From: Reticulascus tulasneorum
Lineage: Eukaryota; Ascomycota; Sordariomycetes; Glomerellales; Reticulascaceae
Reading direction: 5' to 3'
Length of the DNA: 64,000 nucleotides
NCBI GenBank assembly: GCA_001557505.1
Contig: LSAX01000002.1
Coordinates: 3,968,001 to 4,032,000, forward strand
The notes beneath the pieces are model-generated. The model did no database searches. It saw nothing but the letters and a program-made list of their open reading frames with translations, and was not told where the DNA came from. Shown one piece after another: positions 2,350-47,600 of this stretch. The translations under genes and the position numbers were made by a program. Numbering within the stretch: the first letter of the stretch is position 1; the number at the start of each line of letters is the position of its first letter.

Positions 2350-2359
2350 AAAAAAAAAA
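2350..2359 (-). terminator. RNA polymerase III terminator of tRNA-Lys
   Basis: A run of ten T residues on the minus (sense) strand begins 15 bases after the tRNA discriminator base. This is a strong Pol III stop signal and supports the tRNA being a complete transcription unit. Confidence 0.85.
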
Positions 2360-2409
2360 GCACTCGGGAATTGAGCCCGATATGGGGGTCGAACCCATAA
2401 CCTTCAGAT

Positions 2410-2435
2410 GTCTAAGGTTCCGATTGGAGATCCTG
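2410..2435 (-). other. canonical tRNA intron
   Basis: A 26-base insert lies between positions 37 and 38 of the tRNA, directly after the anticodon CTT and A37. This is the standard site for introns removed by the tRNA splicing endonuclease in eukaryotes. Confidence 0.9.
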
Positions 2436-2454
2436 TAAGAGTCTGACGCTCTAC

Positions 2455-2514
2455 CTGAATAGGTGTTAGTCTTAATTGTTCGAATCACATTTTTTTTTCA
2501 ATTGTGATGCTTAC
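2455..2514 (-). other. spliceosomal-type intron in tRNA D loop
   Basis: A 60-base insert in the D loop begins GTAAGC and ends TTCAG. It contains GACTAACAC about 10 bases before its 3' end, which is a perfect fungal branch-site motif. Removing it joins AATCG to GTAGAGC and restores the D arm exactly. A perfect 6-base inverted repeat (ATCACA and TGTGAT) flanks an A9 run inside the insert. GGTA occurs at both boundaries, so the exact junction can slide by a few bases. The features are those of an mRNA intron, not of an endonuclease-type tRNA intron. Whether it is spliced cannot be seen from sequence. Confidence 0.8.
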
Positions 2515-2532
2515 CGATTGAGCTAATCGGGC

Positions 2533-11006: not shown

Positions 11007-12155
11007 CTACTTGGTCGATGGGCTCAGGAGTGTTCTCAAAGTTTTCGAAACTGCGTCTCCGACCTCACTGCAGCTCGACTTCCCCCCCAGATCCCCCGTT
11101 CTGATTTCCAGCCCACCCGCCCCTTTGACGTCTAACACATGAGTGACAGCCTTCTCAATCGCTGCAGCCTCGTCTGTGAGCAAACAAGAATACCTCAGCA
11201 GCATAGCAAGACTGAGAATCTGGCCCACCGGATTTGCAAGCCCCTTTCCGGAGATGTCAGGGGCGCTGCCATGCACAGGCTCGTAGATTCCGTTGCAACG
11301 CCCCTGGCCCGGTATGCCCGATATACTTGCACTGGGTAAGACGCCGAGGGTGCCGGTGATGCCACCAGAGATATCGGATATTATGTCGCCAAAGGTGTTA
11401 TCTGTGTGAATCACTCCGTTGAATTTCCGCGGATCCTTGACCATTATCATGGCCATGCTATCCGCGAGCTGGTTCCGGAGCTCAATGTCCGGGAACTCCT
11501 GTTGAAAGACACCCTCCGTGACTCTCCTCCAGAGCCTCCCGCTGGCGAGCACGTTGGCCTTGTCCGCGCTCCATACCACCGCTGGGCCTCCTTGGCCATT
11601 GCCATCGCGACCCAGGATCCTTGCTATGGCTGCGCTGACACGTGCTAAGCGCTCAACCTCTGGCCTGGAGTAAACCCAGAGATCAGATGCAATGTCTGGC
11701 TCTTCTCTTTTCTCGCCGAAGTACGCACCGCCACAGTTCTCGCGGACAACGATGAACTTGGTCCCGATTACCAGCTCAGGCTTTATTGGCGACGCATCAA
11801 CCAAAGAAGGAACCAAGATTTCGCAGGGCCGGATGTTTGCAAATGCTTCAAGGTGATGCCTGAGTTGAAGCAAACCCGATTCTGGGTTTGGTGATGCATT
11901 TGCCCACTCGGGACCGCCGACACTGCCGAAGAGCACTGCGTCGCTTGATTTGGCCAGATCCAACACAGCCTGGGTGACGGGCACTCCATGCTTGTCTATG
12001 CTGCATCCACCGGCAAGGTCGACGGTGCGGTCGAATCTAAGATTAGGGCGGCATTCCTCAACGACATCGAGCACCTTGAGCGCCTCAGCCATGATCTCAG
12101 GGCCGACATGGTCGCCCGGGAGGACCAAAATGCGATATGACTTCTGTTCTCCCAT
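11007..12155 (-). CDS. 3-isopropylmalate dehydrogenase-like enzyme
   Basis: A single exon of 382 residues starts at the ATG at 12155. It belongs to the beta-decarboxylating dehydrogenase family (NAD-dependent oxidation and decarboxylation of 2-hydroxy diacids). Family landmarks are complete: LPGDHVGPEI at the N terminus, the Arg pair in LLQLRHHLEAFANIRP, VVRENCGGAYFGE with the catalytic Tyr, DKANV with the catalytic Lys, HTDNTFGDIISD with the metal-binding Asp residues, and the EPVHGSAPDISGKG loop. The LLxLRxxL motif is of the isopropylmalate type, not the tartrate/D-malate type. It is divergent from an SDR gene across a shared 629-base promoter and sits in a block with a transporter, aldehyde dehydrogenase and regulator. 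It may therefore be a pathway-specific paralogue and not the housekeeping leucine enzyme; that point is inference. Confidence 0.92.
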   Translation of the reverse strand: MGEQKSYRILVLPGDHVGPEIMAEALKVLDVVEECRPNLRFDRTVDLAGGCSIDKHGVPVTQAVLDLAKSSDAVLFGSVGGPEWANASPNPESGLLQLRHHLEAFANIRPCEILVPSLVDASPIKPELVIGTKFIVVRENCGGAYFGEKREEPDIASDLWVYSRPEVERLARVSAAIARILGRDGNGQGGPAVVWSADKANVLASGRLWRRVTEGVFQQEFPDIELRNQLADSMAMIMVKDPRKFNGVIHTDNTFGDIISDISGGITGTLGVLPSASISGIPGQGRCNGIYEPVHGSAPDISGKGLANPVGQILSLAMLLRYSCLLTDEAAAIEKAVTHVLDVKGAGGLEIRTGDLGGKSSCSEVGDAVSKTLRTLLSPSTK

Positions 12156-12784
12156 GGTTGCCAAACTTTCAGCACTTTGGGGGCTTAGCCTTCGGCTATG
12201 ATGGTGATTAATCGGATAGGTATTCCTAGAACTGCAAACCACAACTTTCTGTCTGGTATGTCAATTTAGTACCCCGCAGTCCATCTGACTCTGCGCTTGG
12301 TCCGGTCCGGAGGTGATGTTGCTGACCGTGTGATCCCTACGAAATCACGACTCAGAAAGGAACAATAATCTCCAATCAGATGACGAAAAATAGGCATAAA
12401 TCTCCTTGCCTAGCTTGCCTACATCCCAGGAGAAAACTTCATGGGTCCATGGGGCGTGGCACAATCCGCCGGAGTGTACCACATTGGCTTGAGTTTGTGC
12501 CTGCACTGCTTTAGCGTGTGCCCCCTCATTTTCCAAATGCGGGGTCAGATGCCATCCCTGGCTGGTTACCGGTCCGGAGTTCGATGAGAGGCGATGTAGT
12601 AAGTGAAGTAAATGCTTCCCAAATCCATATGGAAGAGGGCAATTCATACGCCAAAATCCTACCTACAGCTGACTTCCTACAAGACTTGACAGATACAGGT
12701 TCGATATCATAGGTCCCGGAATAAGTGCTAGGCTACGTACGACCTTTGTCACAACCATCCTGACAAACTATCCACGAGGACAAT
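12156..12784. promoter_or_regulatory. divergent promoter with repeated 11-mer
   Basis: The 629-base interval separates the divergently transcribed dehydrogenase and SDR genes. The 11-mer CCGGTCCGGAG occurs twice on the plus strand, at 12302-12312 and 12569-12579. It contains CGG triplets in direct orientation (CGG-TC-CGG), the kind of half-site bound by Zn2Cys6 proteins. This makes it a candidate operator for the nearby regulator; binding is inference. Confidence 0.4.
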
Positions 12785-43407: not shown

Positions 43408-44624
43408 TTACGATGTTGCTGTGAGAGAGGGATCCGCATTCTGCACGAGCATCTCGACATAATCATTGAACCATGCTCCCGCCCTGGTTGCGCCGGTCAT
43501 TCCACACTGTCCATCGCTCTCGCCACCTGGCTTGATCCATACGATGCTATCGACGTTCGTGTTGTTGACAGGCGTGCCGGGAGCGATGCCGAATCCAGCA
43601 GGGGAAACATTGCACCACTCACCCCACTCCTCGCGAGCGCCAGGCAGCGCAACACGGCCCTGGTCGACGATGAATCGAGAAGGCAAGCCCTCAGCCTCGA
43701 GGAAGGTGGATAGGGAGGAGACGTAGTGCGACTCGTCCCAGGAGTTGCTCCACTCGGTGTAGTTCTCGCGCGGGTTTGCGTGGAACGGGTTGTAGTTGGA
43801 GACGTTGGTGGAAAAGCCACGGATCTTGTTGGTGCCGTTGCCCGCCAGCTGGACGACCTTGGCGAACTCCTTGGCCGCTATGAGATGGTTAGTTGTTGGC
43901 ATTGGAAGACTTAGAGACTGTTCTTACTTAGAGGCAGGTTATCATCCCAACCCAGCCAGCCACCGTGGGCGGCATCGATGTACAAATGCACATTGTCGAA
44001 CTGCAGGTTCGCGATCGCGTACGCAATGCCCTCCTCGTACACCGGCGCCGCCTGCGCGCAGAACGGCACCTTCATATTCGTGATCACATTGCCCAGCGAA
44101 TCGGGCTCAAGCACGATTGCGAACGTTAGATCCTTGGCTGCGGATACCTTCTCCGCGTACGGCTTGATGAACTCGTTCTTGTAGATCTCCATACCGCCCT
44201 CGGTGCTGCTCAGCTCGCCTGCGCTCTCGCCTGCACTGCAGTCCCTATCGGGAAGGTTGTACAGCACGAGGCCAACGATCTGCTCCTGGCCCGAGGCTGC
44301 CTGCTCGGCGCGTGCGGCAGTGATGGCGGCGTCGATGTTCTTGAGGCCAGCGCGATCCGAGACCCAGACGAAGGTGCCGGTCTTTTGAATCGTGCGCACC
44401 TTGGCGGCACTCGCGGCGTCTCCCTTGGCGGTCAGGGACGTGAAGGTTTGCTCGAGCTTGGTGGCCCATGCCGGGTTGGCGAAGAGCTTCTTGCCATCGA
44501 AGGGGTTAGGTCCGCTGGGAATGGTGCTGTTTTGGCGCTTCCAGGATGCGAGCGGTGCTCGACCGGGGGCTGCGGATACAGCGCCAGCAGCGGAGAGGGC
44601 AGCGAGAAGGGAGAGAAGATGCAT
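43408..44624 (-). CDS. GH6 cellobiohydrolase, no CBM1
   Basis: Two exons, 44624-43928 and 43877-43408, separated by a 50-base intron with an ACTAAC branch site, give 388 residues. A signal peptide (about residues 1-19) is followed by a KR site (SWKR|QNS) suited to Kex2 processing. The GH6 catalytic domain covers the rest: the YNLPDRDCSAGES motif holds the Asp of the catalytic network, and IVLEPDSLGNV holds the proton-donor Asp; YIDAAHGGWLGW, GFSTNVSNYNP, FIVDQGR and WIKPGGESDG follow. The enzyme cleaves cellobiose units from the non-reducing ends of cellulose outside the cell. There is no cellulose-binding module or linker, unlike T. reesei Cel6A, so it resembles the short GH6 forms. Confidence 0.93.
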
Positions 44625-47600
44625 AGTTGTGATTGTCTGTACAAGAGAATAGACGGGAAGGGCTGCAGCCAGTAGTCTTTGACGAGACAAGCTTCGAAAG
44701 GTAGCCAAAAACTGGGTGAGAGGCAATGAGAATCTATCGCTGCACTTCTTTCAAATCGACAACCCACAAGCGAGCTCGTCGACCGTCTTATACCCCTTCA
44801 GATTTGCGTCTCCCAGCACCGGATACTTCCCTAAATGCCCATGCCATCATCGAAGTGGATCTCGGAGCACGACGAGGCCAAGTCCGCCCTCTCAGGAACG
44901 GAACGAGAAAACAAATGGACCAGAGATCGCATTCGTGGGCCCAAGCCTCTATTAAGTGGATCGCTGGGCCTGGCATGATTGACGGAGATCGTACCGCCGA
45001 ATATCCAAGCGCTGGAAGATTAAGATGTTTAATATCGGTCGCGGCAGATAGATTGGGGGTTTTTCTTCGGCTGAGATAACCGGTCCCGTGGCGACCCCAC
45101 CGGATCTGGTTGGAGATCCTCCGTCTTGGTTGCATTAAACTGGAGCTTGCGATATTGCCATGGCTGCCCGGGTTGGAAATGATCACTATCGTGCCACGCG
45201 AGCCGTGGTCCGGAATTGCCAGACCGGGTGATTTGGGATGGAGGCATGGCCAGGTTGGGATTGATTGATTGCATGCGAATACCGGTGGGTATGCTGCTTC
45301 ATCATCTGATTGCCGGGAGGCGTGAGTGACAAGGCGCCAAATTTTCTAGGGCAACTTTGGAACTCAACGGGCTTGGTAGAATTACACCTTTCTACCTTAC
45401 TTGATGATGCATGGGGGAAATTGAACTTTCGTGCCGGTGCGGCAAGGTTCCGCAATAAGACAGCCGCTGTCGATGAGCATGTCTGTGGCAATGTGCATTT
45501 GAATCTCCGATATTCTGTAAATATCATATGTTCCAGGGGTTTGCCAGTTAGTAGTGCTGATTGAGGCTCTGCTTCAATTGTTAACCTTACCCCGTGCAAT
45601 ATGACATCGTCGGGAGGTCATTTATACCCCTGTTTCTTGGCTATGCAACACATTTCAACTTCGTCCAAATATCAGGAACGACCCGTTTTCGTCCAGATGA
45701 TGGATGTCACACTCTTCTCATATTTACTTCGGCGACACTTCGGCAGGAGCTCGGACTGATAGCTGGGCGAGAATATGGTGTTATTATGCTCATTCTGAGT
45801 GCAGGCAGGTGCTGCATATTGTGCTCGGGCTCATCTTGGCGTCGTCCGCGCTCTACATGCCAGTTGGGATCTGATTCCAAGATTATGCCCCTCAATATAC
45901 CCAAAGACGTGTAAAACCCCTTCCAACAGCTGCCGAATGAATTATGGCTCCCATATTAAAGGTGTGTGCGGTAAGCTAGGGTTGGTTGCAAGCTTGATTA
46001 TTGGGATGAGTGGTCTGCTTGCGAGAGCTATATAGTTTCTTTCAATAAAGATACTGTTCTTTTTCGGCTCTACACCGACTTGGTTCGGCAAACCGGCAAT
46101 GCACTGCTGTCTATATCAGCGTTCATCCTTCAGCGACGCTACCACGTTTTGAACCTCGACTCCAGTCTCGGGCTTCTGTCAATGAAATATCGGAGTGATT
46201 CGACAGAAGGGCATAACCAAATGAACAACATTGCTTGAGAGACAGTCGTCGTACTATAGAAGTCATCCCCCTTTGCGAGTTTGTTCAACATCTGGGCAAG
46301 CTGGCCAAATACCGGGATCGGGACAGCGACTTTGGTAAGCCGATGGTACACAAGTATTGTCGCATATATTTCTTAGCCGGTCTGCCTAGTCCGCTTTCGC
46401 AGTCGAGTACAGTTTTGAAACCGACGACTGGGATGGAGCCGTACATCGAGAAGCGTGACAGCATGACGCTTTCTTTAACCACAATACTCTAGTCAGCACC
46501 CGTGAATGTGTCGTCAAGCCGTCGGTCACTTGACGGGCTACGAAAAGTGACTTATCGTGGTTGCGGTTCAAGCCATCAAGCATGACAGGTTAGAAATTTA
46601 CCTTCCGGAACTCAAAATCTTGGCCTGAACTTTGTAGATCTAGCGACTGTCCCCTGAATATCCCTCTTCTCCTTTATGCTCCTAACACAGCATCCAGCTA
46701 TTACGTGGTCCAACGCTTGGTTCCAATACGAATACAGTTTGTCCTCTTTTCCCTCTGAGTTTAGCATTCTAGATTAGTACAGCCTAGCTTGAGCTGAGAT
46801 TGACTACCTACGGCACTAACACACCCGCTGGGGGCGGCTGGCAACACCACTAATGACCTTAGTCCCGTTCATACAGTGAATAAAGATATTAGTCACAAAA
46901 TTCCATTTTCGGAAAAGTTCCGAGTAGTCATTTGAGCTCAAGAATCAGATCCGATTGTTTAGTTTGGCTCCCACTGTAAGAGCAAATGTGACCCTGATGG
47001 GGCAGTATGCCTCATCATCACGTTTTATAGCGACTCTTCAAGATGTTAATACACAAGACTTCATCTACCATTTACTCCTTTTAGATCTCAAACTTGTCTG
47101 GCATTATCGTTGGGCTTTTATTACAATGTTGGAAAGCTTGAATATACTGATATTCCACTGGTCATGGTTTCTGAAGGTGCGGATTGCGAAAGAATATGCA
47201 GATCTCCTAGCACAATGGCATCTTGCCACTCTCGAGGAGGGCTCAGAACAATGGAATATCAAGTGGCGATACATCGTTCATTTCTGTTTTCAGGGCAGAC
47301 GAATGCTCTAGTCCTGAGTAGTGATAAAACAGCACCGGCCTGTTCCGCCTCTTCAGTCCATCCCCAATGCAGAATTTGTGACGCTCTGCTTATTACATAT
47401 CCGAGTCCTTGGACCAGGTTCCTCCTTATAGAAGAAAGGCCCTAGCCTAAATCTAGCTCTAACTGCCTGCTTCTTCGCAGAGAAATCATAACCATTGGTC
47501 AATTTTAGGCCACAAAGTCACCTTACCAGGAACAATTGGTAACAAAGAGCCAAGTCAAAGCATATCTGGAAACTTTAAATATTAGCTTAAGCCCTCGGAT

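Follow-up and report, generated by a model that had tools for sequence, protein, structure and literature searches.

The window analysed here is a stretch of 64,000 nucleotides (C2:3968001-4032000) from the 42.8 Mb, 35-contig assembly of a filamentous ascomycete. Among its protein genes are a 3-isopropylmalate dehydrogenase gene (window positions 11007-12242, minus strand), whose best match stands at 84% and is followed by Verticillium, Microdochium and Xylariales proteins at 77-81% among the 120 matches listed, and a GH6 cellulase gene (43911-44726 and beyond, minus strand). An F-box protein has two distant matches, one of them from Apiospora.

A lysine tRNA gene with an insert in its D loop

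Near the start of the window lies a tRNA-Lys(CUU) gene, here termed Lys1, which is interrupted twice. Its component parts, all on the minus strand, are as follows.

2374..2532, minus: tRNA-Lys(CUU) gene, 159 nt as encoded and 73 nt without both introns; identified by RF00005, by its sequence and by ARAGORN, which gives Lys(CTT) after excision
2515..2532, minus: exon 1, 18 nt, positions 1-18 (acceptor 5' strand, D-stem 5' strand and D loop to G18); the same in the paralogue on contig C1
2513..2525, minus: A box, TAGCTCAATCGGT, the final GT being the opening bases of the intron
2455..2514, minus: ectopic mRNA-type intron, 60 nt, between G18 and G19, GTAAGC...GACTAAC...TTCAG; a homologous insert is present in the paralogue
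2484..2508, minus: possible hairpin, ATCACA ... TGTGAT, between the 5' splice site and the branch
2465..2470, minus: presumed branch motif ACTAAC, with the branch A at 2466, 11 nt from the intron 3' end
2436..2454, minus: exon 2a, 19 nt, positions 19-37, with the anticodon CUU
2410..2435, minus: canonical 37/38 intron, 26 nt (17 nt in the paralogue)
2374..2409, minus: exon 2b, 36 nt, positions 38-73 (18 + 19 + 36 = 73 nt)
2385-2395, minus: B box, GGTTCGACCCC, inside exon 2b
2350..2359, minus: presumed Pol III terminator, a run of ten T on the gene strand

The original prediction placed a 60-nt minus-strand insert, opening with GTAAGC, carrying ACTAAC and ending in CAG, at 2455-2514 in the D loop of this gene, and held that its removal together with the 26-nt intron at 37/38 restores a 73-nt cloverleaf. 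The insert is borne out by the sequence and by Rfam, which matches Lys1 unaided (RF00005; 46.1 bits, gathering score 29) and places two insertions in it, the first in the D loop and the second in the anticodon loop. The cloverleaf is likewise recovered: without both introns the gene is 73 nt long with all stems complete, and once the 60-nt insert is removed ARAGORN reports Lys(CTT) with a 26-nt intron. At default settings ARAGORN returned no match in the window, and with introns allowed it misread the unspliced gene as Ser(AGA).

The element TAGCTCAATCGGT, which we take to be the A box of Lys1 from the A-box consensus, is left unbroken by the insertion because the intron opens with the very GT that the A box needs. 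The longest T run inside the gene is two. The combination of GTRNG, branch motif and terminal AG arose in 6 of 200,000 shuffles of the insert. Five adjacent cut positions, GT-AG among them, yield the same mature tRNA; the boundary of the Lys1 intron is therefore not fixed by its DNA alone, and it is the other loci, described below, that fix it.

A whole-genome search with the Lys1 gene returned a sole relative, a second Lys(CUU) gene (Lys2, locus L002) at C1:384089-384238. The exons of the two genes are identical at 73 of 73 positions. Lys2 carries a 60-nt insert at the same site of its D loop, which agrees with that of Lys1 at 47 of 62 aligned positions, and GTAAG, CTAAC and TTCAG are retained in both; its 37/38 intron measures 17 nt against 26 nt in Lys1. 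The blastn similarity stops 6 nt beyond the 5' end and 23 nt beyond the 3' end of the gene, while the 5' flanks agree at 37 of 68 aligned positions (0.54), which is slightly above shuffled pairs (mean 0.44, maximum 0.52, n = 200) and thus not fully random. The presence of identical exons beside diverged introns points to selection on the tRNA.

The possible hairpin of the Lys1 insert has a counterpart in the paralogue (GTCACA ... TGTGAC), the two differing by one compensatory change from an A-U to a G-C pair. It is weak in both inserts, with folding z values of -1.5 and -1.8, and 15 of 200 and 10 of 200 shuffles, respectively, fold equally well. In the trailer (window 2360-2373), the first 13 nt (CAATTCCCGAGTG) are the same in Lys1 and Lys2, and this segment could pair TCGGG/CCCGA with the 3' acceptor strand, in competition with the acceptor stem.

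Lys1 and Lys2 are the only Lys(CUU) genes found with the joined 73-mer and with GTAGAGCNNNNGACTYTTA at up to one mismatch, and neither search revealed an intron-free copy in the assembly. In six window ORFs, lysine is encoded by 86 AAG against 28 AAA codons, making AAG the main lysine codon. The original prediction had reasoned that many intact CUU genes elsewhere would make Lys1 a dead copy; these were searched for in the assembly and none was found. Its alternative suggestion, that the gene had been silenced very recently, is disfavoured by the other Lys(CUU) gene, with its identical exons and the same kind of insert, and by the mRNA-type inserts of eight further tRNA genes at other places. 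A match to GTAGAGCNNNNGACTYTTA with at most one mismatch was also absent from the genome for Lys(UUU), the gene for which may have another sequence or carry an interruption at a different place.

Interrupted tRNA genes across the assembly

B-box sites were listed genome-wide with GGTTCGANTCC and GGTTCGACCCC, and all listed nuclear ones were examined. To these were added 30 of the 90 GGTTCAANTCC sites, which occur near the control level (90 versus 81), and the nuclear matches of the tRNA model. Contigs C8-C11, C13, C14, C24 and C26-C31 were left out as probably mitochondrial; they are small, hold repeated, near-identical tRNA clusters or B-box pairs, and are probably mitochondrial pieces or concatemers. 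Genes were accepted on T-stem and acceptor pairing or on ARAGORN, with splice motifs ignored, and the interrupted loci were likewise found by DNA similarity (the second Lys gene), by B box and acceptor pairing, or by ARAGORN, and not by splice motifs. The survey is incomplete: some of its regions reach only about 190-200 nt upstream of the B box, so that longer genes would be missed, and its systematic part is confined to the B-box patterns given.

The uniform scan produced 21 candidates, three of which (L072, L115 and L159) are without a downstream T5 run and look like chance occurrences. The 18 that were kept, together with L174, L180, L193, L204-L207 and L016, L030 and L058, make up 28 distinct nuclear tRNA genes, L091 being counted once (it has two identical copies). 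In this incomplete survey, 10 of the 28 possess an insert of 52-60 nt outside 37/38. The sites of these inserts, in position numbers assigned in this analysis, range from 15/16 to 35/36:

Leu(AAG), L084: insert at 15/16
Lys(CUU), Lys1 and L002: insert at 18/19
Arg(ACG), L069: insert at 19/20
Leu(UAG), L089: insert at 20a/21; the anticodon is UAG after splicing
Leu(CAG), L117: insert at 23/24
Leu(AAG), L144: insert at 26/27
Thr(UGU), L174: insert at 29/30
Arg(UCU), L085: insert at 34/35
Ser(AGA), L180: insert at 35/36

L084 and L144 are the two genes labelled Leu(AAG)a and Leu(AAG)b below. The 5' ends of the inserts read GTAAGC, GTAAGT (twice), GTACGT (twice), GTATGT (twice), ATAAGT, GTAAGA and GTACGA, and all ten inserts share T2, A3, G5 and A-2. 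Nine begin and end with GT-AG, and one, that of Leu(CAG), with AT-AC (ATAAGT, ACTAAC). Every insert contains a YTRAY motif whose A lies 10-14 nt from the 3' end, with further YTRAY matches in four (Arg(ACG), Leu(AAG)a, Leu(AAG)b and Ser(AGA)). The 3' ends that depart from YAG are AAG in Leu(AAG)a and Thr(UGU), and AC in Leu(CAG). When the inserts were shuffled, the full GT-AG signature appeared in 0-28 of 200,000 trials per gene, a form of the test that the AT-AC insert of Leu(CAG) itself fails.

The ten genes have 7/7 acceptor pairs and full T stems, and their tRNAs have mature lengths of 72-83 nt. A 37/38 intron of 10-26 nt is found in eight of them as well, and each of the ten is followed within about 40 nt by a run of five or more T, with no such run inside the gene. 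As U2-type spliceosomal introns, the inserts present ends of the kinds used by that class, which are GT-AG and, rarely, GC-AG or AT-AC, with the fungal 5' splice-site consensus, the branch distance and a restored sequence upon removal; as nuclear tRNA genes, their hosts present the cloverleaf, the A and B boxes and the T-run terminator. A scan of the window for mRNA introns was noisy and only one intron from it was used, that of the GH6 gene, which is 50 nt long (GTAAGA...CAACTAAC...ATAG) and runs from 43927 on the minus strand, 5 nt past the part that can be aligned with a solved GH6 protein. Because this intron has the same form, at least one mRNA intron of the genome looks like the tRNA inserts.

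Two further members of the 28 have long inserts. L053 (contig C1 near 1596317, minus strand) is tRNA-like and 137 nt long, with a possible 13-nt intron at 37/38 and an insert of about 65 nt in the variable region that starts with GTAAGT and has no AG or AC 3' end giving a good tRNA; it is perhaps a decayed Gly(CCC) copy. L161 (contig C32 near 574883, minus strand) is tRNA-like and 106 nt long, with an insert of about 34 nt; its acceptor stem and T arm are intact, it has no pairable anticodon arm, and it is probably a pseudogene. No GT-AG or AT-AC cut gives a good tRNA at either locus, and both are left unexplained by a spliceosomal reading.

A search for the A box joined to GTANG hit 24 places compared with 22 in the reversed control. 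Three of the 24 were already known, and 13 others were examined and had neither a B box nor an ARAGORN tRNA. The Lys D-loop intron pattern had no match in viral contigs and three bacterial matches in prokaryotic contigs, which were taken as chance.

Excision of the inserts and competing explanations

The effect of excision was assessed by a scan that was blind to splice motifs, in which every possible deletion of 40-75 nt within the 5' portion of a gene was ranked on structure only, using a simple tRNA-structure scoring of our own (481-1326 distinct products per gene). In eight of the ten genes no product outscored the proposed one. The latter was the sole best for Leu(CAG) (of 1097), Leu(AAG)b (of 1286) and Thr(UGU) (of 1095), where the cuts lie in or adjoin stems; for Ser(AGA) it was joint best of two among 793 products; and for Leu(AAG)a, Lys1, Lys2 and Arg(UCU) it was joint best among 6-226. 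In Arg(ACG) and Leu(UAG) it held the second rank with ties, one product scoring slightly higher. The ties with the GT-AG product thus number 6-226 in six genes (Lys1, Lys2, Arg(ACG), Leu(AAG)a, Leu(UAG) and Arg(UCU)). Where structure fixes the product, the cuts that yield it include GT-AG or, in Leu(CAG), consist of AT-AC alone. Between two and five equivalent cuts, obtained by a slide of 1-4 bases, exist in seven of the ten genes, and a single cut only in Leu(UAG), Leu(CAG) and Arg(UCU).

ARAGORN, run with introns allowed, reported the expected tRNA after excision in nine of the ten genes and '???' for Leu(CAG). Prior to excision, it assigned another isotype in six (the Lys genes as Ser and Pro, three Leu genes as Arg, Arg and Val, and Arg(UCU) as Thr) and already the same isotype in the other four (Arg(ACG), Leu(CAG), Ser(AGA) and Thr(UGU)), so that excision changes the call only in the six. 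The Arg(UCU) gene L085 is a case in point: it has an Arg-like body, which matches L075, another Arg gene in this genome, and its anticodon, apparently UGU, becomes UCU once the insert is removed. At the Rfam gathering score, the unspliced forms of Lys1, L085 and, barely, L069 (30.9 bits) were recognised, and those of L084, L089, L117 and L144 were not, L002, L174 and L180 being outside that run.

In Cyanidioschyzon merolae, ectopic tRNA introns belong to the endonuclease/bulge-helix-bulge (BHB) class; the inserts described here, in contrast, show ends and branch motifs of the spliceosomal type and lack a strict BHB. It is nevertheless conceivable that they are ectopic tRNA introns cut by the Sen endonuclease, as in archaea and C. 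merolae, and that their GT-AG appearance is accidental. This reading, which we regard as highly improbable, draws on the D-arm introns of C. merolae nuclear tRNA genes, described in the part of that study used here (PMC9602550), and on the ordinary 37/38 introns that accompany eight of the ten inserts. Sen-dependent excision, which the original prediction named as the outcome that would refute a spliceosomal route, was looked at through strict BHB geometry: a 4-bp central helix was found in none of the ten genes at any equivalent cut, the best having three of four central pairs with incomplete flanking helices. Moreover, the inserts lie at 15/16 to 35/36 and not at the eukaryotic 37/38, are 52-60 nt long where the accompanying 37/38 introns measure 10-26 nt, and share ends, G5 and branch distance in ten of ten cases, which cutting by Sen leaves unexplained.

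The interrupted genes might instead be silenced copies, with other, intact genes supplying these tRNAs. Dead copies may indeed exist in this genome, as L053 and L161 look decayed and have long inserts, and the tRNA survey is incomplete. Against this, all ten genes combine complete acceptor and T stems and a downstream T run with coherent tRNAs after excision, and both Lys(CUU) genes found are interrupted, with identical exons next to diverged introns; we would give silencing only a very slim chance. The least probable of the alternatives is that the tRNAs are processed from longer Pol II transcripts, with ordinary pre-mRNA splicing followed by release of the tRNA, which would give the spliceosome access without any link to Pol III but sits poorly with the T runs, placed downstream of and never within the ten genes, as in Pol III units.

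Three further candidates were rejected. An isolated pseudogene is at odds with the second Lys copy and the eight additional genes. For a group I or group II intron, the only matches at the Rfam gathering score in the window and 36 loci (L002, L174 and L180 not among them) were to tRNA. A single mobile intron family that had spread was rejected too: the Lys inserts alone are clearly alike, at 76% identity, and the closest other pairs are at about 60%.

A putative spliceosomal step in tRNA maturation

The inserts are thus very probably U2-type spliceosomal introns residing in the Pol III transcripts of nuclear tRNA genes and excised by the major spliceosome. The dependence of a Pol III transcript on the spliceosome, which was originally proposed for Lys1, is supported at the level of DNA. 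We also consider it likely that the major spliceosome is needed by 10 of the 28 nuclear tRNA genes seen, about one third, with both of the Lys(CUU) genes found among them; that these introns, one of them a U2-type AT-AC intron, were gained repeatedly and at different sites, from position 15 to inside the anticodon; and that translation therefore relies directly on two unrelated splicing systems, both of which act on the same Pol III transcripts.

In the proposed sequence of events, spliceosomal introns would have entered nuclear tRNA genes of this filamentous ascomycete, and Pol III would transcribe the tRNA from the A and B boxes. The major spliceosome would then read 5' GTANGN, the YTRAY motif 10-14 nt before the 3' end and the terminal AG, and remove a lariat of 52-60 nt. 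In the AT-AC case, the first and last intron bases would have changed together; these two bases are known to pair, and the AT-AC ends of Leu(CAG) fit with this. Next, in the eight genes that have a 37/38 intron, the tRNA would fold, and the Sen endonuclease and tRNA ligase would take out that intron. The Sen enzyme requires a folded tRNA body. This requirement, along with the supposition that the D- and T-arm introns of C. merolae are removed before the anticodon intron (in the part of PMC9602550 used here), suggests the order in which the spliceosome acts first and Sen second.

How do these genes compare with known systems? Canonical eukaryotic 37/38 introns occur in eight of the same ten genes and differ from the inserts in position, length and sequence ends. 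The C. merolae nuclear tRNA introns, reported at 12/13 and 53/54 in the section of PMC9602550 drawn on here, share with those of this fungus a location outside 37/38. The introns of fungal U3 and U6 genes are spliceosomal and also interrupt small structured RNAs. According to the portion of the 2017 paper considered here (PMC5832005), U3 introns carry GTRWGT, RCTRAC and YAG, the fungal branch motif ranges from about 6 to 36 nt before the 3' splice site, and no small structured RNAs apart from U3 and U6 were known to carry introns frequently; that portion names no tRNA host, unlike the situation here.

Furthermore, the nuclear rDNA of lichen-forming ascomycetes contains spliceosomal introns, one of 57 bp, and yeast spliceosomes removed one of them correctly from Pol I transcripts, as stated in the part of PMC8527467 used here. 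Like the tRNA inserts, these introns are short and spliceosomal and lie in a structured, non-coding RNA not made by Pol II. The lichen host, however, is an rRNA made by Pol I, whereas here it is a tRNA, presumably made by Pol III, of 72-83 nt when mature and with a second splicing system on eight of the ten transcripts. The inserts would thus be a further case of ectopic spliceosomal introns in structured RNAs, a kind already known, with tRNA as a host class that we did not find described. Among the literature matches listed, which covered few subscription journals, there was no report of spliceosomal introns in tRNA genes.

The spliceosome is normally kept apart from tRNA processing, tRNA splicing being carried out by protein enzymes and mRNA splicing by the spliceosome. 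A 2026 review, in the part used here, treats tRNA splicing as independent of the spliceosome (PMC13149111). Genes of the type described above are missed or misnamed by tRNA finders, as illustrated by ARAGORN, which called the two Lys genes Ser and Pro; for tRNAscan-SE 2.0, the relevant part of its description places the search for non-canonical introns in archaeal mode (PMC8450103). More cases may lie unseen in fungal genomes. The finding, if true, would make intron gain testable in a setting where exons are very short, fixed by structure and without a reading frame. It would also mean that tRNA precursors are natural substrates of the spliceosome, and that in this fungus changes in spliceosome activity would affect the production of Lys, Leu, Arg, Ser and Thr tRNAs.
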